A stretch of DNA of 27,019 bases from a virus, in IMG/VR virus record IMGVR_UViG_3300035698_000274, positions 1 to 27,019 of that record; one strand, 5' to 3'. This document shows positions 2,978 through 26,056 of this stretch, in pieces (the stretch's first letter is position 1; each line of letters opens with the position of its first letter). The notes below the pieces were generated by a model. The model was not told where the DNA came from. It ran no database searches and was given only the letters and a program-made list of their open reading frames with translations. A program made the translations under genes and the position numbers.

Positions 2978-4141
2978 ATGGCAGATTATCCAATAAGTAA
3001 CGTAGCAAGGAGAGTAGTCTACACTGGCTCTGCTGGTGCAGGACCGTATGCTTTCGAGTTTGAAGTGCTGGAAAACACAGATATTAATGTGTATCAAGAT
3101 GACGCACTTCTGACATTAACAACAGATTACACAGTAACAATTAGCGCGTTACTTGGCACAGGATCGGTTACATTAGTCGTTCCTGCTGCTGGCAGCAATC
3201 GCATCACTATTGTTGGCTCACGGGCTGTAGAGCGTACCACAGACTTTACTACTGGTGGTGACTTCTTTGCTAATACGCTTAATGATGAAATGGATTCTCA
3301 AACAATCCTTGTTCAACAAGTGGCGGAAACTGCTGAACGTTCTATCAAAGCACCTGTTACTGATCCGACTACTATTAACATGGTGTTGCCAATTGATACT
3401 GCTCGTGCTGGCAAGACACTAGCGTTTGATGGTGATGGTAACCCTATTGCTGGCGACCCTATTGGTAACTGGCGTGGAAATTGGGCTGCTGATACATCAT
3501 TCCAGAATCGCGACATTGTTAAAGATACAACAAACAGTAATATTTATCTTGTTATTACTGCCCATACTTCTACTGGAGCATTGCCGATTAGCTCAAATAC
3601 TGACGTTGCAAAATGGGCATTAGTAGTTGATGCAGCAGCAGCAGCAACGGCTCAAGCGGCAGCAGAAGCAGCGCAAGCAGCAGCAGAAACGGCTGAAACA
3701 AATGCAGAAACAGCAGAAACTAACGCTGAAACAGCAGAAACAAATGCGGAAACTGCTGAAACAAATGCAGCTACATCTGCAAGTAACGCAAGCACATCTG
3801 CAAGTAATGCAGCCACCAGTGAAAGTAATGCGGCTACATCTGCAAGCAATGCCTCAACAAGCGAAACAAATGCTGCTGCAAGTGCTGCCTCAGCTGAGCC
3901 TTTACCTACTCAAACCAGTAATGCAGGTAAGTATTTACAGACCGATGGTACGGATGCAACATGGGAAGATGTAACAGGTGGTGGTCCTAGTCTTGGTACG
4001 GATAGTATTATTAGAACAAATGCACAAACTATCAGTGAAAATATAACAATACCGTTAGGTACAAATGGGATGTCTATTGGTGATATTGCAGTTGCTGATA
4101 CATACGCTGTAACGGTTAATGGAAGGTGGATTGTAATATAA
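2978..4141 (+). CDS. Tail fibre, T7 gp17-like N-terminal adaptor plus coiled-coil shaft
   Basis: This 387-residue protein starts 2 bp after the ejection protein. Residues ~1-125 (ISNVARRVVYTGSAGAGPYA, later VERTTDFTTGGDFFANTLND) match the tail-proximal domain of T7-type fibres, which docks the fibre on the tail tube. Residues ~170-215 look like a small carbohydrate-binding-type module (GNWRGNWAADTSFQNRDIV). Residues 236-305 are ten heptads of an Ala/Asn/Thr-rich repeat, expected to form a trimeric coiled coil. The end (PLPTQTSNAGKYLQTDG to NGRWIVI) is a small terminal domain with a normal finish, so the protein is not obviously truncated. At 387 residues it is shorter than T7 gp17 (about 550); separate downstream modules may supply the distal tip. 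Its stop overlaps the next start by one base (TAATG). Confidence 0.88.
   Translation: MADYPISNVARRVVYTGSAGAGPYAFEFEVLENTDINVYQDDALLTLTTDYTVTISALLGTGSVTLVVPAAGSNRITIVGSRAVERTTDFTTGGDFFANTLNDEMDSQTILVQQVAETAERSIKAPVTDPTTINMVLPIDTARAGKTLAFDGDGNPIAGDPIGNWRGNWAADTSFQNRDIVKDTTNSNIYLVITAHTSTGALPISSNTDVAKWALVVDAAAAATAQAAAEAAQAAAETAETNAETAETNAETAETNAETAETNAATSASNASTSASNAATSESNAATSASNASTSETNAAASAASAEPLPTQTSNAGKYLQTDGTDATWEDVTGGGPSLGTDSIIRTNAQTISENITIPLGTNGMSIGDIAVADTYAVTVNGRWIVI
3683..3892 (+). repeat. Ten in-frame 21-bp (heptad) repeats in the fibre shaft
   Basis: The DNA encodes four copies of AETAETN followed by six variants (AATSASN, ASTSASN, AATSESN, AATSASN, ASTSETN, AAASAAS). The period is exactly 21 bp and the copies differ at synonymous sites, so selection is on the protein. 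The repeat gives rise to spurious open frames on the other strand and in other frames, which should be ignored. The number of heptads would set shaft length. Confidence 0.9.
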
Positions 4142-4491
4142 TGAAAGCGAATAAGATAACACTAGAGCAAGCACTACTCCATGAGCTATTCGATTATAGC
4201 GGAGGGCAGTTAGTATGGAAGCAAAGGCCAAGCAAACTAAGCCGAGCGCCTCTTGGTGAAGTTGCGGGAGGGTTACACCATTCTGGATATAGAAACATAA
4301 AAATCTATAATGTTTTATACCCAGCACATAGGTTAGTTTGGATTTACCATAACGGGTCTATCGATGACAAACTTCAAATTGACCATATTGATAGGCGTAA
4401 GGATAACAATAATATTTCTAACCTTAGATTGGTAACGGCTAAAGAAAACAGTGCTAATAGGGTTTATAAATTTAATAGGGAGGCAGCATAA
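4141..4491 (+). CDS. HNH homing endonuclease (HNH_3 type)
   Basis: A 116-residue protein from the ATG at 4141, which shares its A with the fibre stop codon. A TTG five codons upstream is possible but unnecessary. The N-terminus (LFDYSGGQLVWKQRPS) is the short domain usual for this class. The nuclease core follows: AHRLVWIYHNG, IDHIDRRKDNNNISNLRLV, then TAKENSAN, with the metal/catalytic His of the HNH signature at about residues 63 and 82. It acts as a DNA nicking or cutting enzyme that promotes its own spread. It sits between the fibre gene and the first distal module and keeps TAATG overlaps on both sides, so it is translated with the tail genes without disrupting them. Confidence 0.9.
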   Translation: MKANKITLEQALLHELFDYSGGQLVWKQRPSKLSRAPLGEVAGGLHHSGYRNIKIYNVLYPAHRLVWIYHNGSIDDKLQIDHIDRRKDNNNISNLRLVTAKENSANRVYKFNREAA

Positions 4492-5496: not shown

Positions 5497-5550
5497 ATGA
5501 TTACAGTAAATAACTCCAAAGCAACAGAGATTACAAAGGATATTGATTAA
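5497..5550 (+). pseudogene. 17-codon N-terminal relic of the 6254 gene, now a leader to the GIY-YIG gene
   Basis: A well-formed ribosome site (AAAGGAAACAAA) precedes MITVNNSKATEITKDID and a stop. This matches the start of the gene at 6254 (MIQVNREAAEGITKSAI) at MI-VN, A, ITK and I in the same spacing. The stop codon overlaps the ATG of the GIY-YIG gene (TAATG). It therefore looks like the 5' end of the original companion gene, separated when the endonuclease gene inserted. It may still be translated as a short coupling leader. Confidence 0.65.
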
Positions 5551-6245
5551 TGGAAACTGTGTTTGGTGCTTATCTTCATTGTCGTCCTGATGGTACACCG
5601 TTTTATGTAGGTAAGGGTACAGAAAAGCGTATGCGTAAGTTAAAAAGAAACAACCTCTACCATTCAAACATTGTCAGTAAACACGGCAGTGAAAGTATAC
5701 TGACTGGCTTCTTACCTTGTTCAGATGAAGCTACCGCTTTTGAGTTGGAGAAAGGTCTGATTAAGCGTATTAAAGCTATTGGTATTAGATTGGCTAATAT
5801 GACTGAAGGTGGAGAAGGCCCTTCGGGGTATAAGCACAATAAAGAAGATGTTGCACGTAGAGCTAAAGAAGCTTTTGGTCGTATTATATCAGAAGAGATT
5901 AAAGCTAAAATAAGCAAAGCATTAACAGGCGTGCCAAAGCCAGCTAGAAGTGTTGAACATAATTATAATATGTCTAAGGCTAAACAAGGTGGTAAAGCCT
6001 CTCAAGAAACTAGAGACAAGATGTCTAAAACACATTTAGGTAAATTAACTAAAGTTTTTAAACCTTGGTACATCAAATACCCAGACGGTTTAATTAAAGA
6101 GGTTTATGATATGTCTATTTCAGCCTACGCTAGAAACGTAGGGGAGAAACAGAGTAGGCTTGTTGGTCGTTTCAGTAAACGGTATATAGACAGACAAATA
6201 ATAAAGGGTATCCATACTGGGTATACTTTCGGATATATTAACTAG
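5550..6245 (+). CDS. GIY-YIG homing endonuclease with NUMOD3 DNA-binding repeats
   Basis: This 231-residue protein has a variant GIY-YIG core at residues 6-23 (GAYLHCRPDGTPFYVGKGTE). An Arg follows at ~27, a Glu in the helix AFELEKGLIKRI (about 65-67), and NMTEGGEGPSG after it, as in the phage Seg/I-TevI-like class. Two or more NUMOD3-type elements follow (SEEIKAKISKALTG and SQETRDKMSKTHLG). These are minor-groove DNA-binding motifs typical of homing enzymes. A C-terminal segment (YDMSISAYARNVGEKQSRLV) resembles NUMOD1-type helix-turn-helix. It sits between the N-terminal relic and the intact copy of a tail companion gene, as expected for a mobile intergenic endonuclease. Confidence 0.92.
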   Translation: METVFGAYLHCRPDGTPFYVGKGTEKRMRKLKRNNLYHSNIVSKHGSESILTGFLPCSDEATAFELEKGLIKRIKAIGIRLANMTEGGEGPSGYKHNKEDVARRAKEAFGRIISEEIKAKISKALTGVPKPARSVEHNYNMSKAKQGGKASQETRDKMSKTHLGKLTKVFKPWYIKYPDGLIKEVYDMSISAYARNVGEKQSRLVGRFSKRYIDRQIIKGIHTGYTFGYIN

Positions 6246-7469: not shown

Positions 7470-7688
7470 ATGACAACAGCACAAGATACAATTTCTAGCA
7501 TTGCAGCTAAGGCAACTTACGGTGGTGCAGGGACGGCGATATTCTTTGGACTAAATGCTTATGAATTCGCAGCGATGGCTGGTGTAGTTATAGGTGTGCT
7601 TGGCTGGATTGTTACTCTTGTATTCAAATTGTTGGAACGTAAAGATAGATTGAAACATAATAAGATAATGGAAAGTAAAGGAAAATAA
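7470..7688 (+). CDS. Holin, HP1-like class II
   Basis: The 72-residue product MTTAQDTISSIAAKATYGGA ... FGLNAYEFAAMAGVVIGVLG has two hydrophobic segments (about 18-36 and 38-55) joined by a short turn. It ends in a highly charged tail (KLLERKDRLKHNKIMESKGK). Length, topology and the start sequence match the HP1-type holin family, which makes the membrane lesion that releases the endolysin. Its stop overlaps the next start (TAATG), tying it to the second holin-like gene. Confidence 0.75.
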   Translation: MTTAQDTISSIAAKATYGGAGTAIFFGLNAYEFAAMAGVVIGVLGWIVTLVFKLLERKDRLKHNKIMESKGK

Positions 7689-8080
7689 TGTTACATATAT
7701 TACTCCCGTTAATTAGCACCGTCATTGACAAGGTTATACCTGATAAAGCTGGTGCTGAAAAAGCAAAGCAAGAAATTGAACGCTCACTCGTTGATAACGC
7801 TAACAAACTTAATCTGGCTCAGATAGAAGTAAACAAAACTGAGGCAAGTCACGCTAACATTTTTGTTAGTGGTTGGCGACCTGCAATCGGATGGAGTTGT
7901 GCCTTCGGATTTTTTTGGCTGTTTATTGGCTACCCAATAGCTGACTGGATATTGCACCTTAATGGTGTAGAGCAAGACCTTCCGAAGATTAATGCGGACG
8001 TATTGATGGAGCTTACATTTGGTATGTTAGGTATGGCTAGTTTAAGAACCTATGAAAAATTAAAGGGTATTACTAAGTGA
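7688..8080 (+). CDS. Three-TM holin-like protein (GTA_holin_3TM type)
   Basis: This 130-residue protein has an amphipathic, charged first half (KAGAEKAKQEIERSLVDNAN), then VNKTEASHANIFVSGWRPAI. Hydrophobic spans follow (WSCAFGFFWLFIGYPIADWI and LMELTFGMLGMASLRTYEKL). The FVSGWRP-(A/F)IGW signature is typical of the holin family first described in gene transfer agents. With the HP1-like holin upstream the phage carries two holin-type proteins; one may act as an antiholin. It overlaps the endolysin start by four bases (GTGA). Confidence 0.8.
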   Translation: MLHILLPLISTVIDKVIPDKAGAEKAKQEIERSLVDNANKLNLAQIEVNKTEASHANIFVSGWRPAIGWSCAFGFFWLFIGYPIADWILHLNGVEQDLPKINADVLMELTFGMLGMASLRTYEKLKGITK

Positions 8081-8508
8081 CACCAAACTTTAGCTTGGCT
8101 GAATTAATTGATAGCAACACTGCAACAAGGCTTGGCATTGACAATACCCCAACCCCTGAAGCGTTAGCTAACTTAGAGATACTTGCTCATGGATTGGAAG
8201 CGGTAAGAGCCAAGCTGTATAGCAATTCAATGAGAATTTCTAGTGGCTATCGTTGCCTAAAACTAAACCGCAAGTTAAGAAGCAAAGATACTTCGTACCA
8301 TCTTAAGGGATTGGCTGCTGACTTTACTTGTCCGGGCTTTGGAACAGTTCCTAAGATTATGAAAGCGTTAGCAGAATCAAGCATTGAGTTCGACCAACTT
8401 ATCTTGGAATTTAATTCATGGATTCACATTGGATTTGCACAGGCTGGTGAAAAACCTAGAAGGCAAATGCTGGTTATTGACAAGTCTGGCGCAAAGGTGT
8501 ATAACTAA
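8077..8508 (+). CDS. Endolysin, peptidase M15 (M15_3 / D-Ala-D-Ala carboxypeptidase type)
   Basis: A GTG start overlaps the stop of the holin-like gene; the product is 143 residues. Zinc-site features of M15 peptidases are visible: SGYRC at 56-60, SYHLKGLAADF with His75 and Asp82, and WIHIGF with His117. It would cleave peptidoglycan cross-links or stem peptides. There is no signal peptide, so export depends on the holin. The start (NFSLAELIDSNTATRLGIDN) is the standard N-terminus of this phage family, which supports the GTG start. Confidence 0.9.
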   Translation: MTPNFSLAELIDSNTATRLGIDNTPTPEALANLEILAHGLEAVRAKLYSNSMRISSGYRCLKLNRKLRSKDTSYHLKGLAADFTCPGFGTVPKIMKALAESSIEFDQLILEFNSWIHIGFAQAGEKPRRQMLVIDKSGAKVYN

Positions 8509-9819: not shown

Positions 9820-10130
9820 TAAAAATAAATCCTATTTTGAAAAATAGCTTGCGGCAATACATATCCGTACTGATTCTGGTTTAATAGATTGACTAGGTTG
9901 ATAACCACATTACCATCTGCTGTTACTGAATAGCATCCTTTGGCTTGCTGATCAATCACTAAGTCTTCAGCGTAAGCTTGAAACAACATAATGCCTGGCG
10001 GTGATTCGTACATAGTGCAGGGTAAATCAGTTAGTGTTATTGTTGTTCCCTTAGTTATCTCTGCAAACTTCTCTGCTGAGTGTGCTGTCAAATCTGTAGA
10101 TAATGCTATCAATGCAATGATTGTTTTCAT
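9819..10130 (-). CDS. Secreted/periplasmic small unknown protein
   Basis: The 103-residue product has a short hydrophobic start (MKTIIALIALSTDLTAHSAE) that reads as a signal peptide with cleavage near residue 18-20. The mature part of ~83 residues has two Cys (TDLPCTM and KGCYSV), which could form a disulphide in the periplasm. I do not recognise the family. It sits in a run of six small genes of which five encode membrane or exported products, suggesting a role at the cell envelope. Confidence 0.65.
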   Translation of the reverse strand: MKTIIALIALSTDLTAHSAEKFAEITKGTTITLTDLPCTMYESPPGIMLFQAYAEDLVIDQQAKGCYSVTADGNVVINLVNLLNQNQYGYVLPQAIFQNRIYF

Positions 10131-10153: not shown

Positions 10154-10339
10154 TTACCGCTTAGTTCCCTTCTGTTTTCTTTTCATTTCATTCATGTATC
10201 GCTTAACATCTTCTGCGTATGCCTTGCCATATTCTAATTCACTACGTATTAAATTTGCAAGCCTGTATCGCTCGTCATGTGTTGGCCTCATGTTAAACCT
10301 AGCCATTTCTTCTGCCGATATACGACCAGGTTTAATCAT
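10154..10339 (-). CDS. Small basic helical unknown protein
   Basis: This 61-residue protein (MIKPGRISAEEMARFNMRPT, then HDERYRLANLIRSELEYGKA) is rich in Arg, Glu and Lys and probably helical, with a very basic end (MNEMKRKQKGTKR). Its start overlaps the stop of the Cys-rich peptide gene (TAATG). No membrane segment or recognisable domain is seen. Confidence 0.6.
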   Translation of the reverse strand: MIKPGRISAEEMARFNMRPTHDERYRLANLIRSELEYGKAYAEDVKRYMNEMKRKQKGTKR

Positions 10340-10488
10340 TAGTAACAGGTTGTGGTACAGTTGCCATAGTTACAGCAAGTAGTACATACGGTAGTTCTAC
10401 CACCTTGGTACACTGTGTGTGTGGTGCATGCTGCATAAGCACCAATTGATGTTGTTAATAAAGCCACTGCTATCAATATTGTTTTCAT
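10339..10488 (-). CDS. Exported Cys-rich peptide
   Basis: A 49-residue frame with a strong ribosome site (AAGGAGTAGTACA before ATG) and coupling to the next gene by TAATG. Residues 1-19/20 (MKTILIAVALLTTSIGAYAA) are a clean signal peptide with an A-Y-A-type cleavage site. The mature part of about 30 residues contains six Cys (C21, C35, C38, C39, C44, C48) with the pattern CTTCCNYGNCTTTC, so it is likely disulphide-bonded in the periplasm. I vaguely recall similar tiny proteins in other phages but no function. Confidence 0.7.
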   Translation of the reverse strand: MKTILIAVALLTTSIGAYAACTTHTVYQGGRTTVCTTCCNYGNCTTTCY

Positions 10489-15225: not shown

Positions 15226-15254
15226 GGTTGCCTTTCTATATAGTGTTCAAATGC

Positions 15255-15298
15255 TCATAATAGCCACCTAACGCGATTAAACGTCCGTGGCTATATGA
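15255..15298. other. Inverted repeat in the leader of the initiator gene region
   Basis: TCAT-(a)-ATAGCCAC and GTGGCTAT-ATGA pair as a 12-bp stem with one bulged base around a 19-nt loop, between the 73-residue gene and the initiator gene. There is no T-run after it on the minus strand. It could be an RNA hairpin that modulates transcription or translation, or a protein site. Confidence 0.45.
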
Positions 15299-15311
15299 TG
15301 GCATAGGTTAA

Positions 15312-15533
15312 TTATTTATTTCTCTCACAGGCAATTATTTCAGTTTCAATAATCAATAAAATATGCTCGCTTATTATTGACATTAGATTGACTGTATCGT
15401 TAATAGCTTCGATACTATTAAAATCGATGTCGTATATGAATTGACGTTCACCTGATTCGTTCGTTTCGGTGGTTTTCAATAGGTCGTAATAAACATCTAA
15501 TTCCACGTTTTCTATTTTCGTTTGGTATAGCAT
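15312..15533 (-). CDS. Small acidic unknown protein
   Basis: This 73-residue protein (MLYQTKIENVELDVYYDLLK, then FIYDIDFNSIEAINDTVNLM) is acidic, with a beta-like first half and a helical C-terminal part (MSIISEHILLIIETEIIACE). Some phage proteins start with a similar VELDVYYDLL phrase, but I know of no function. The leader has the repeated ACAATGGAG element (15542-15550). Confidence 0.65.
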   Translation of the reverse strand: MLYQTKIENVELDVYYDLLKTTETNESGERQFIYDIDFNSIEAINDTVNLMSIISEHILLIIETEIIACERNK

Positions 15534-15541
15534 TGTAATAT

Positions 15542-15550
15542 CTCCATTGT
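15542..15550 (-). promoter_or_regulatory. Repeated translation leader ACAATGGAG, copy 2
   Basis: On the minus strand AACAATTTTAAGCC precedes ACAATGGAG, then ATATTACA and the ATG of the 73-residue gene at 15533. It matches the other three copies over the 9-mer and continues as NNATTACAATG-like sequence. Confidence 0.55.
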
Positions 15551-15554
15551 TGGC

Positions 15555-15875
15555 TTAAAATTGTTGGTAAATGTAAAAAGTCACACCTTCTTTTACATGC
15601 CTACCACAAACCATAGTTTCAGATGATAGCCAAACAAACGCTTCATTAGCAGAGGTGTCCGACTCTAAACTATAGCTATCAATAAGGTCTGCTAAACTAG
15701 ATTCAGAGTATTCGCAACAAATAGCAATAACGTCTAACTCTATCTTAGCCCCTGTATCATTCTCATATGTTTCAAAGTATTCCCACAAAATCGACAAGCC
15801 TGCATAACTAAAATTATCAGGTCTAATGCTTGAAAAAGCATCTAAAAACCTTGTTTCATCAATTGTTTGTACCAT
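15555..15875 (-). CDS. Conserved acidic phage protein of unknown function
   Basis: The 106-residue product contains FSYAGLSILWEYFETYENDT and GAKIELDVIAICCEYSESSL, a combination I recognise from many small phage proteins without a known role. The C-terminal part (FVWLSSETMVCGRHVKEGVT) is beta-like. It follows the ACAATGGAG leader (15884-15892) and is likely cytoplasmic. Confidence 0.72.
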   Translation of the reverse strand: MVQTIDETRFLDAFSSIRPDNFSYAGLSILWEYFETYENDTGAKIELDVIAICCEYSESSLADLIDSYSLESDTSANEAFVWLSSETMVCGRHVKEGVTFYIYQQF

Positions 15876-15883
15876 TGTAATTG

Positions 15884-15892
15884 CTCCATTGT
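15884..15892 (-). promoter_or_regulatory. Repeated translation leader ACAATGGAG, copy 3
   Basis: On the minus strand ACAATGGAGCAATTACAATG reaches the start of the 106-residue gene at 15875. The ATG inside the 9-mer opens a second frame relative to the gene start. Confidence 0.55.
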
Positions 15893-15953
15893 GTGTTTAT
15901 CGTTCGGCTTAACTTGCCCGACAAGACCCTCGTTGAAAGGCCTTGTTAGAAAG

Positions 15954-16055
15954 TTATTTTAGCATTGGTGAGTTTAATAACGCGTAGTTTAATGCGTCTA
16001 CACAAAGCCAAATAAGTATTACCAATATACCATATAAAGCATAATCATGTTTCAT
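15954..16055 (-). CDS. 33-residue membrane microprotein A
   Basis: A 33-codon frame with AAGGG upstream. The product begins MKHDYALYGILVILIWLCVD and ends YALLNSPMLK: a short charged start, one hydrophobic span and a conserved tail. Its paralogue at 17274-17375 is identical at 26 of 33 positions, and 12 of those 26 identical residues use different codons. This pattern shows that the protein sequence is under selection, so both are very likely real genes. Function unknown; inner-membrane location inferred. Confidence 0.75.
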   Translation of the reverse strand: MKHDYALYGILVILIWLCVDALNYALLNSPMLK

Positions 16056-16078
16056 TTTTGATTAATCCCTTATCTTGT

Positions 16079-16207
16079 TTACATTCTATCGTTACATAAT
16101 TCATATGTATTTGTAGGGTATCCATCAGTAATAAAATTGTCGAACAATTCAAGATTAACGCGCCATGTTGCATAGTTTGTCCAGCCGTTATATGTAGTAG
16201 TAGTCAT
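16079..16207 (-). CDS. Short DUF7249-like protein
   Basis: The 42-residue product starts MTTTTYNGWTNYATWRVNLE, matching the opening of a small phage family (NGWTNYETWRV) I recall as DUF7249. The usual proteins are longer, so this may be a shortened member. The leader holds the ACAATGGAG element (16216-16224), which also creates a five-codon upstream frame overlapping the start. Confidence 0.68.
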   Translation of the reverse strand: MTTTTYNGWTNYATWRVNLELFDNFITDGYPTNTYELCNDRM

Positions 16208-16215
16208 TGTATTAT

Positions 16216-16224
16216 CTCCATTGT
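16216..16224 (-). promoter_or_regulatory. Repeated translation leader ACAATGGAG, copy 4
   Basis: On the minus strand ACAATGGAGATAATACAATG precedes the 42-residue gene at 16207. The ATG in the element opens a five-codon frame (MEIIQ) ending in a TGA that overlaps the gene start, a possible coupling uORF. Confidence 0.55.
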
Positions 16225-16236
16225 GGTTTTATTGTG

Positions 16237-16491
16237 TTAATTATAATATCTTGTATAAGATCTTATTTTACTTGTTTTATCCGTGCGCCGTTCATTAAAA
16301 GAAAAATTAATATTGTTTTCTGTTAGCGCATTAACCAATTTTGCAAGGTCGCAATCTTCTTCTAAGTAGGCCTTATCGCCTCGCATATAACTATAGCTGC
16401 TTATTTGGTCCGTAATGCCTAACTTGTTTAATAAGGTCTTGTTTACTTTGGCCCATGCGTGGCCAGAATCTGCATAAATTGTAATTTTCAT
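16237..16491 (-). CDS. Small conserved phage protein
   Basis: I use the ATG at 16491, preceded by AGGAATATATAAC; a longer frame upstream overlaps the Cys-rich gene and lacks a ribosome site. The 84-residue product has DSGHAWAKVNKTLLNKLGIT and ISSYSYMRGDKAYLEEDCDL, a signature familiar from many phage genomes but without a known role. The C-terminus is basic. Confidence 0.75.
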   Translation of the reverse strand: MKITIYADSGHAWAKVNKTLLNKLGITDQISSYSYMRGDKAYLEEDCDLAKLVNALTENNINFSFNERRTDKTSKIRSYTRYYN

Positions 16492-16520
16492 GTTATATAT
16501 TCCTATCTTAAATTGATTGT

Positions 16521-17189
16521 TTAATGAATGGCCGTTATTGCAATAACTTTTTTGGCCTTTGTGCCATGCGGTATAAAGCCAATGACATAATTGCGCTCTT
16601 TTACTGCACATAATTGACATTTCGCGCATGTCATGCCTTCTGATTTTTGCGCGGGGCAAATAGCTACTTGGACCCCGTTTGCTAGTTTATATGGCTTATT
16701 TTGCGTGGCTATTGTTACAACGGGCAAGCCTGCTTTAAATAGGGCCATGGCCTCATTATCATTGTTTGCGCTAGCATTGACAATAAAACCGTTTTCAATT
16801 GCATTTATTACACTGGCTTTATTGGCCTCGTTATTTAATAACGGGTAATGCGTATAGGTAAAGCCGCGTTTACCTTTGTTTGCTTTTGTTAGCTTGTTGA
16901 GGGCCTCTGAATCAATAACATTATTGCGGCCAACAAGATCTCCAGCCTGATTGTGCCGCCATAATTGGCCCCGTGGTAGTTTAGCAATGTCAGAGCAGAA
17001 TTGGTCCCAAGAAGATCCGCGCTTTTCATCGGTCACGGCTTGCCAATGCATATTTAAATGAAAATCTTCTGCATAGCAGCCAGCATTTTTTAATGGGCAT
17101 GAAGGCGGGCAAGATCCCTTGCTTGTTGTTGTCACTGGAATAGGGCCAGTCTTTCTATTGCTTGATATTTTAGTCAGGTGGGCTTGCAT
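16521..17189 (-). CDS. Cys-rich phage protein of unknown function (DUF7227-like)
   Basis: The start at ATG 17189 has GAGGATACA upstream; an in-frame extension of 19 residues has no ribosome site. The 222-residue product carries SCPPSCPLKNAGCYAEDFHL near the N-terminus and ICPAQ then MTCAKCQLCA near the C-terminus, so six or more Cys could bind metal or an Fe-S cluster. Between them LPRGQLWRHNQAGDLVGRNN and RGFTYTHYPLLNNEANKASV are blocks conserved in a widespread phage family. I recall no proven function. The Cys clustering is somewhat radical-SAM-like but no CxxxCxxC core is present. Confidence 0.78.
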   Translation of the reverse strand: MQAHLTKISSNRKTGPIPVTTTSKGSCPPSCPLKNAGCYAEDFHLNMHWQAVTDEKRGSSWDQFCSDIAKLPRGQLWRHNQAGDLVGRNNVIDSEALNKLTKANKGKRGFTYTHYPLLNNEANKASVINAIENGFIVNASANNDNEAMALFKAGLPVVTIATQNKPYKLANGVQVAICPAQKSEGMTCAKCQLCAVKERNYVIGFIPHGTKAKKVIAITAIH

Positions 17190-17273
17190 AATAATTGTAT
17201 CCTCAAAGGTTATATTGTAGTGACTTGGATCAGTCCAATAAAGCACTTGTTAAAATGCTTTAGTAAAAAACCC

Positions 17274-17375
17274 TCATTTCAACATTGGCGAATTAATTAA
17301 AGCGTATTCGAGAGCGTCAAAACAAAGCCATAAAAGAATGATTAGAATAATGTAAAGTGGATAATCGTGTTTCAT
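17274..17375 (-). CDS. 33-residue membrane microprotein B (paralogue of A)
   Basis: The ATG lies one base after the stop of the preceding 30-residue frame. The product begins MKHDYPLYIILIILLWLCFD and ends YALINSPMLK, the same layout as microprotein A at 15954-16055. Substitutions in the span are conservative (V/I, I/L, V/F) and the blocks WLC, DAL, YAL and NSPMLK are invariant. Function unknown. Confidence 0.75.
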   Translation of the reverse strand: MKHDYPLYIILIILLWLCFDALEYALINSPMLK

Positions 17376-17376
17376 G

Positions 17377-17469
17377 CTAAAAAACCCCCAAACCCACACC
17401 GAACAAGTCGGCAACATACAAAGAGTTTAAAGTAAAGAACAAAGCGACTGAGATTTTAATTTGTGTCAT
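17377..17469 (-). CDS. 30-residue hydrophobic microprotein (tentative)
   Basis: An ATG directly after the stop of the 32-residue frame (TAAATG) opens a 30-codon frame: MTQIKISVALFFTLNSLYVA, then DLFGVGLGVF. It could be a signal-anchor or a small membrane peptide. Support comes only from back-to-back placement with the flanking microgenes; no homologue is known to me. Confidence 0.4.
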   Translation of the reverse strand: MTQIKISVALFFTLNSLYVADLFGVGLGVF

Positions 17470-17568
17470 TTATATCACCGCTTTGGAATCTTTACGAGTT
17501 GCTAGTATAAAGCTAACGAGTTGCGCTTTGGCAATTGCTAGATCTACTTTGTTGATTACTGTTTTCAT
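17470..17568 (-). CDS. 32-residue microprotein, first gene of the leftward operon
   Basis: The ATG at 17568 follows AGGAA by about 8 bp and is about 50 nt after the predicted transcription start. The product (MKTVINKVDLAIAKAQLVSF, then ILATRKDSKAVI) is basic and probably one amphipathic helix. As the first coding unit of a strong early promoter it may be a small host-takeover factor or a translation leader. Not recognised. Confidence 0.5.
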   Translation of the reverse strand: MKTVINKVDLAIAKAQLVSFILATRKDSKAVI

Positions 17569-17687: not shown

Positions 17688-18302
17688 ATGACACCGTTTA
17701 AGATACCAAGCAAACCAAGCATAGACTTAAAAGAGAAAAAGCCAGACGCGCGGCGATTCAGTGTAATACCGCTAAGAGCAATGCACGATAAAAGGCTAAC
17801 AAGAGGTGATCTAATCAATCTAATTGCTTTGTGTTCATATTGCTCACCTAACGGGTTCACGTTCGTGGCGCACTCAACCATTGCTAAGCTAAGAGGTGTT
17901 AGCACGCCAGGCGTGTCCAGAACACTTAAGAAGTTAGAGAAGCTTGGATACTTCGAGCAGGTAAGAAAAGGTTATACGGCATTAAGAGGAAGTCTTAAGC
18001 GGGTTATATATGATGAAGACATAGATTTAAGAACACAAGAGAGTAACAGCGGGGTATCAATAGAATCAATCATTAATCGGGAAGAAGAAACTATGAAGCG
18101 AGCAGCAAAGAGAGAAGTAGTTAACGCAGCCAGTAAGGTGAGAGATAACAAGCAGTCCGTTATTGATACAGGTATACAATTCGATCAGGCTCTACTAGCT
18201 GTCAATCACTTCATCAAGACTGATGCAGATCTGTTGAAGCTTGAACATCTCATTACTATCGGTTCGACTGAATCAGAAGTAGTTGAAGCGTTCAAGGTAT
18301 AG
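17688..18302 (+). CDS. Divergent winged-HTH DNA-binding protein
   Basis: The 204-residue product has RRFSVIPLRAMHDKRLTRGD and LINLIALCSYCSPNGFTFVA, then STIAKLRGVSTPGVSRTLKK with LEKLGYFEQV. This is a winged HTH (residues ~35-100) of the kind in phage/plasmid replication initiators and regulators. The second half is charged and helical. It is transcribed away from the early promoter 35 bp off, the usual place for a regulator of that promoter. There is no Shine-Dalgarno before ATG 17688, and a -10-like TGATAAT is so close that the mRNA could be leaderless. Alternative role: replication initiator. Confidence 0.72.
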   Translation: MTPFKIPSKPSIDLKEKKPDARRFSVIPLRAMHDKRLTRGDLINLIALCSYCSPNGFTFVAHSTIAKLRGVSTPGVSRTLKKLEKLGYFEQVRKGYTALRGSLKRVIYDEDIDLRTQESNSGVSIESIINREEETMKRAAKREVVNAASKVRDNKQSVIDTGIQFDQALLAVNHFIKTDADLLKLEHLITIGSTESEVVEAFKV

Positions 18303-25807: not shown

Positions 25808-25828
25808 AAGCCCTTAATTGGGCTTTTT
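25808..25828 (+). terminator. Rho-independent terminator after the scaffold gene
   Basis: AAGCCC-TTAATT-GGGCTT followed by TTT: a 6-bp stem with 6-nt loop and a T-run, six bases after the scaffold stop. It would end or attenuate the packaging/head transcript before the capsid gene. The palindrome also gives partial termination for the minus-strand fragment region. Confidence 0.82.
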
Positions 25829-26056
25829 AATATTTAAATAAAATAAGGTAACTATATATAACTTTACACTATAGCCAACAGCTATAACAGCATCCAAGTT
25901 ATAGTGTTCAGGATTCCTAGATACTTGTCTTTCGCCTTCAATTTGAACTATTTCCATTTTGGAAACAGTTGAATTATATTCAAGCTCACCTTCAAGAAAT
26001 ATATTACTTAGATGCTTAGATATTGCAGGAACATTTACATCAAAAATCTCTACCAT
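25814..26056 (-). pseudogene. RhuM-family fragment
   Basis: An 80-residue minus-strand frame: VEIFDVNVPAISKHLSNIFL, EGELEYNSTVSKM, then HYNLDAVIAVGYSVKL. This matches the HTH-bearing core of RhuM ('virulence protein') proteins (expected form: A-ELF-V-x-P-x-ISKHI-NIF-EGEL ... YNLDAIIAVGYRV). RhuM proteins are about 330 residues, and here both the N-terminal ~20 and the C-terminal ~240 are missing. After GY the frame drifts (SVKLYIVTLFYLNIKKPN) and runs into the terminator. It is a decayed remnant lying against the direction of all neighbours. A short functional DNA-binding product cannot be excluded. Confidence 0.7.

Follow-up and report, generated by a model that had tools for sequence, protein, structure and literature searches.

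The window analyzed here, which is an entire 27,019-base virus record, contains two minus-strand open reading frames (ORFs) of 33 codons, copy A (15954..16055, encoding MKHDYALYGILVILIWLCVDALNYALLNSPMLK) and copy B (17274..17375, encoding MKHDYPLYIILIILLWLCFDALEYALINSPMLK), and their resemblance raises the question of whether ORFs this small are genes and, if so, how one phage came to carry both. The two products, an A-type and a B-type microprotein each with a single predicted membrane span, are identical at 26 of 33 residues, and 12 of these residues, as well as the stop codon, are specified by different codons; coordinates, length, identity and codon count are exactly as the first-pass annotation gave them. 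The 99 coding bases hold 30 differences, split 11/1/18 among codon positions 1/2/3, and the Nei-Gojobori proportions are pS 0.88 and pN 0.16. When the A-B substitutions were placed randomly in 100,000 neutral trials, a mean of 14.8 residues was kept (maximum 22), and 26 identical residues were never reached. The remaining five reading frames show no conservation. Copy B has a possible upstream extension to 17417, which no homologue shares.

Because the differences fall at synonymous positions and the length is kept, the two ORFs read as protein-coding genes under constraint, and we regard it as almost certain that they are real; the original argument, that a peptide retained through synonymous divergence is functional, holds up well against these numbers. 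One might instead suppose that the ORFs are untranslated and that an RNA or DNA element accounts for the conservation, given that a conserved RNA-like hairpin directly adjoins both of them. That hairpin is located outside the ORFs, however, and the synonymous character of the differences, the preserved protein length and ends, and the unconserved alternative frames make this account exceedingly improbable.

Relatives were gathered by scanning IMG/VR first with the A/B pair and afterwards with alignments of increasing size; profile searches across 257 sequence sets yielded nine distinct proteins of 33-37 amino acids on the window and 11 viral contigs (E 1e-15 to 1e-23). This sample is small and drawn entirely from uncultured metagenomic contigs, three of which duplicate another contig's sequence and are possibly not independent, and each gene offers about 20 synonymous sites. 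The A protein recurs unchanged in IMGVR 3300031658_002151, where the gene is one base different; the A-type sequence MKHDWALYILVVILIWLFVDALTYALLISPMLK is present in 3300005918_001268 and 3300005935_001910 (79% to A in 3300005918_001268), and the closest relative of B is a B-type gene in 3300004448_000862 that is interrupted by the contig end. The member MKNHDWALYILTAIAFIAFCYSLDFALNNSPLLR is found in 3300011334_000184 and 3300011339_000707, and further members lie in 3300032305_000230, 3300032312_001919, 3300032266_000280, 3300009180_000459 and 3300027763_000015. Among member-bearing contigs, the window alone has two copies. For every pair of family members pS exceeds pN, and neither of the contrary outcomes that were looked for, a lack of homologues or broken frames, was seen.

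The family has a recognizable layout. H3, D4, L7, Y8, A25 and L26 are invariant, HD(W/Y)xLY stands at the start of all members and SP(M/L)L(K/R) at the end of each complete one, and an acidic residue (D20 and/or D/E23) lies within the hydrophobic span of every member. Hydropathy maxima are 1.9-2.6 over 19 residues (KD19), and all members are predicted to form one membrane-spanning hydrophobic helix; AlphaFold2 likewise returned a single helix (residues 5-28, mean pLDDT 84), as it would for nearly any hydrophobic peptide of 33 residues. By tblastn, none of the 50,697 INPHARED phage records gave a credible member, nor did two scans of 84,980 cellular genomes that required an exact peptide pattern, which distant members could escape. 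Searches of Pfam, PHROGs, NCBIfam and PADLOC gave no named family, with weak sub-threshold matches only. These results bear out the earlier suggestion of an unannotated family of membrane microproteins. Two candidate relationships were set aside. The L254 member had matches at E 0.4-1 among proteins of Bruynoghevirus (LUZ24-like Pseudomonas phage), and we treated these as compositional because the phage proteins are longer (annotated at 109-117 codons) and have only a DW..Y.L hydrophobic stretch in common with it; a PDB match to a succinate dehydrogenase subunit (E 0.94) was attributed to chance.

The phages that carry these genes fall into two lineages. The closest cultured relative of the window's phage is MEP301, which infects the marine methylotroph clade OM43 (Methylophilales; PMC8024684, MW452941) and has a similar genome plan. 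The terminases of the two are 79.5% identical, so the host is probably a marine or freshwater methylotrophic bacterium. Six distinct member sequences come from MEP301-like phages, and the members in L251-L254 belong to phages of a second lineage, whose terminase differs and whose primase is large. The microgenes of L251 and the MEP301-like L099 differ at a pN of 0.08, so the gene has passed from one lineage to the other. Its distribution is also patchy: MEP301, L090, L100, L107 and L108 are without the microgene though their replication genes are related, and MEP301 was found to have neither the microgene nor the repeated element described below. Among second-lineage relatives that are cultured or complete, no member was found in the examined stretches of DSL-LC05 and Manatee Spring ctNMl277.

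Several other features of the window deserve mention. A 38-nt match to a Manatee Spring record lies within the primosomal gene. An 80-aa ORF (25814-26056, minus strand) matches the start of the Virulence_RhuM profile only (PF13310, E 4e-9) and is probably a fragment; its neighbors are a scaffold-like gene and a capsid-like gene that is truncated by the end of the contig, and none of the blocks that align with L083 include it. A 49-aa protein (10339-10488, minus strand) starts like a signal peptide, is Cys-rich at its end (CTTCCNYGNCTTTCY) and has no Pfam match. On the plus strand are a tail-fibre-like protein containing a stretch of NAETAET and SNAATS repeats (3600-3900) and, among the tail genes, ORFs judged by eye to be homing-endonuclease-like (5550-6245 and 4126-4491).

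How, then, did two copies arise? The first-pass annotation called them paralogous, and homologous they are, at 26 of 33 residues, but the term is too simple, as the A type and the B type are each common to different phages. Copy A and the L083 gene show one synonymous difference where the neighboring replication gene has a pS of 0.52 (binomial P ~1e-5); copy B and the L092 gene show a pS of 0.24 where the neighboring replication gene reaches 0.73 (binomial P ~3e-5); and copy A and the L088 gene have a pS of 0.33. Judged by these comparisons, A and B are probably two old types that move between phages and were acquired here as separate cassettes. A recent duplication in place, with A and B diverging under constraint as ordinary paralogues of this phage lineage, would agree with the 1.2-kb distance between the copies, their common strand and the shared repeated element that follows each of them. 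We nonetheless consider it unlikely: the two types predate the splits among these phages (A-B pS 0.88, versus 0.33, 0.24 and a single difference), and L083 and L088 carry an A type only. Once acquired as separate cassettes, the two copies might persist because they have diverged toward different targets, or because dose matters.

On gene arrangement, the operon that holds the microgenes is variable, consists of tiny accessory genes and adjoins a divergent promoter region. One border is a conserved 73-aa gene (15312..15533, minus strand; 75% identical in L083), and the other is a divergent replication-initiation-like protein on the plus strand (17688..18302). Between these, all on the minus strand, a 106-aa phrog_9974-like gene (15555..15875) lies beside copy A; relatives of it adjoin the microgene in L252 and occupy another part of the L083 operon, in which the position after A lacks the gene. 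Copies A and B flank, as the first-pass annotation described, a Cys-rich gene and two small ones: the 222-aa DUF7227 protein (16521..17189), an 84-aa gene with relatives in other phages (16237..16491), and a 42-aa DUF7249-like ORF (16079..16207), which is short against the 93 positions of its family and has a relative after the microgene of L254. Beyond copy B lie a 30-aa ORF with no relative found (17377..17469) and a 32-aa microgene ending LATRKDSKAVI (17470..17568), the latter 79% identical in L092 and there directly before the B-type gene. The locus had been described as an early operon. An operon of small genes it is; "early" comes from gene order, and since a promoter scan of the operon did no better than chance (14 promoter-like sites, versus 15.1 in shuffles), early expression is read from position only. 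In L083, a 30-aa hydrophobic ORF (MKDLAGIIYFLLLIVVIQTATIVLLLNNTI; 9889-9981, plus strand) lies directly upstream of the A-type gene; several membrane microproteins, unrelated to one another, may be encoded in the operon.

After each copy lies a stem-loop and start-associated element that the first-pass annotation did not mention. This element, seen in L083, L088 and L090 and after copy A, is about 80 nt long and runs from a stop codon to the next start; it opens with a hairpin of roughly 14 pairs, followed by a small GGGC...GCC hairpin, then (T/A)ACGATAAAC and finally a start-associated sequence. A covariance model identified exactly two full copies in the window, both on the minus strand. The first (15876..15953; 80 bits, used in the model) occupies the whole interval between the stop codon of A and the ATG that begins the 106-aa gene, and contains SL1, SL2, ACGATAAAC and the start-associated sequence ACACAATGGAG; the second, a diverged copy between B, which it directly follows, and the DUF7227 gene (17193..17270), stood outside model building and scored 42 bits (E ~5e-8). 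Elsewhere the model found five copies in L083, three in L088 and two clear ones in L090, with single weaker copies in L093, L099, L100, L102, L104, L107 and L108 and more in L103, L127, L141 and L174. Copies at 11 further loci outside model building had E values of 2e-8 to 1e-4, although some loci may be near-identical contigs and the copies are not countable as independent. In an alignment of 11 copies, 7 of the 14 hairpin pairs carried changes in both partners; pairing held in 94.2% of cells, against no more than 56.5% after sliding, and covariation was 0.36 versus 0.16 in shuffled alignments.

The start-associated sequence also stands before other small genes. The variant ACCACAATGGAGATAATACA (16208..16227, minus strand) precedes the DUF7249-like ORF and CCAACAATGGAGATATTACA (15534..15553, minus strand) the 73-aa gene, and ACAATGGAG lies a few bases 5' of the ATG in four small genes of the window. 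A loose version of the pattern has five matches in the window versus 0.59 expected, four of the five at gene starts. The sequence CACTATATAGGAA was considered as a second start motif, as it precedes first-in-operon genes in several relatives, and was rejected when its frequency in the window, with two mismatches, proved not above chance. A different strong hairpin (AGCCAC...GTGGCT) with CACTATATAGAAAGG is located before the primosomal gene (15226-15311, minus strand) and is kept in L083.

The element begins 0 to 3 nt past the stop codon of A, B and the L083 and L088 microgenes. It is absent directly after the microgenes of L093, L099 and L251-L254, and the covariance model (R1) returned no copy in the L251-L254 lineage; it can thus explain mobility only within the MEP301-like group. 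Rfam gave no match in the window or operon, and an element copy used as query retrieved nothing from INPHARED. The sequence after the copy-A hairpin, GTCGGGC, has no U-run, the sole minus-strand terminator-like site listed (14784-14770) is at neither element, and a common TACGATAAAC block is only suggestive as a promoter.

The link between this element and gene replacement comes from the comparison with L083, which is one clear case of gene gain or loss at a junction and not a survey. Homology between the window and L083 begins at the ATG of A, continues past A to the start-associated sequence of the 106-aa gene, and then jumps to that of the 73-aa gene, such that the sequence upstream of the one gene is fused to the sequence upstream of the other. 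The blocks of homology on either side of the absent 106-aa gene share 23 nt in L083, at the start-associated sequence, and recombination between two such sequences would leave an overlap of this kind. In this virus the element appears to allow genes of this kind to be exchanged as cassettes. Elsewhere in L083 (8307-8725, plus strand) are adjoining, similar genes of 55 and 56 aa, both ending AxAYNY and each followed by the repeated element, which are likely a second cassette pair.

Comparable arrangements exist in other phages. T4-like phages are said to carry PeSL elements, reportedly described by Comeau et al. in 2014 as repeated intergenic stem-loops between small accessory genes and credited with modular shuffling; PeSLs are further said to be composite promoter-terminator motifs. 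The element examined here is likewise a repeated intergenic stem-loop between small accessory genes that is tied, in one clear case, to gene replacement, but it occurs in another phage group, shows no promoter excess, has a copy-A hairpin without a U-run, and carries a start-associated ribosome-binding sequence. A second parallel is with the SAS and ESAS elements of cluster K mycobacteriophages, in which a 13-bp consensus (GGGATAGGAGCCC) near start codons places a ribosome-binding core a few bases before the starts of small non-structural genes, often after inverted repeats of 17 bp with a variable spacer (PMC3203893). Both systems repeat a ribosome-binding sequence right before the starts of several small genes with an inverted repeat ahead, but here the sequence reads ACACAATGGAG and the inverted repeat takes the form of a compact hairpin with about 14 pairs. 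In its way of working the element resembles T4 PeSLs and the ESASs of mycobacteriophages, to which it is unrelated in sequence, and we place it in neither system, given that the cluster K consensus had no matches here with up to two mismatches allowed and that, of the T4 promoter-terminator features, neither a promoter excess nor a U-run after the copy-A hairpin was seen. A bolder proposal would make the element a dedicated cassette platform, acting as DNA or RNA and possibly recognized by a phage protein, that captures, exchanges and expresses single-gene anti-host cassettes, with the microprotein as widely traded cargo that crosses lineages; we consider this unlikely.

Several possibilities can be weighed for what the microprotein does. 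Small phage membrane proteins that act early on the host include superinfection-exclusion and host-takeover peptides, and the present family resembles these as a tiny single-span protein in an operon of small accessory genes; it differs in that the searches connected its sequence with no named family. A membrane-active toxin of the type I toxin-antitoxin or small-hydrophobic-toxin kind, regulated by an antisense RNA or a nearby hairpin, would also be short and hydrophobic, and a stable hairpin does lie directly downstream; moreover, copy B matches Pfam Ibs_toxin (PF13956) at 15.0 bits (E 0.025). This score is far under the curated cut-off of 27 and was obtained for B only, however, Ibs proteins are 18-19 residues long, nothing was found in Rfam, and the hairpin is common to unrelated neighboring genes, which argues that it is no dedicated antitoxin; we judge a toxin distinctly unlikely. 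A role in lysis, as a minimal holin, antiholin or pinholin regulator, is more doubtful still. The single hydrophobic span is compatible with it and the L099 member has a very weak match to a holin PHROG (E 0.29), but an M15-like peptidase and two holin-like membrane genes are grouped at 7470-8508 on the plus strand, much as the MEP301 record annotates peptidase M15A beside a holin family protein, and the microgenes are distant from these, in a small-gene operon beside replication genes.

The explanation that we favor as a whole, and hold to be probable, is that the single-span membrane microproteins form a small family spread by horizontal transfer, encoded in a variable operon with element-linked swapping and having a putative early membrane role directed at the host or at other phages. 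The element would carry the ribosome-binding site for translation, its hairpin may process or insulate the mRNA, and its shared sequence would supply homology for gene swapping. Further steps are put forward more tentatively: from its position beside the divergent replication gene, the microprotein might be made early, after which it could enter the host inner membrane, where the intramembrane acidic residue and the conserved C-terminus might bind a membrane protein of the host or of an incoming phage and thereby alter host physiology or exclude superinfecting phages. We accordingly put forward this last part, a putative host-directed or superinfection-exclusion role, as a possibility held at somewhat less than even confidence.

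Gene callers usually overlook genes of such small size, and a constrained family that spans two phage lineages while being absent from the annotated collections searched suggests that much accessory phage biology may be unlisted. The hairpin-plus-start element, for its part, provides a concrete, searchable marker of where cassettes begin and end, and in this little-studied group of phages it opens modular gene exchange to testing, much as PeSLs did for T4-like phages.
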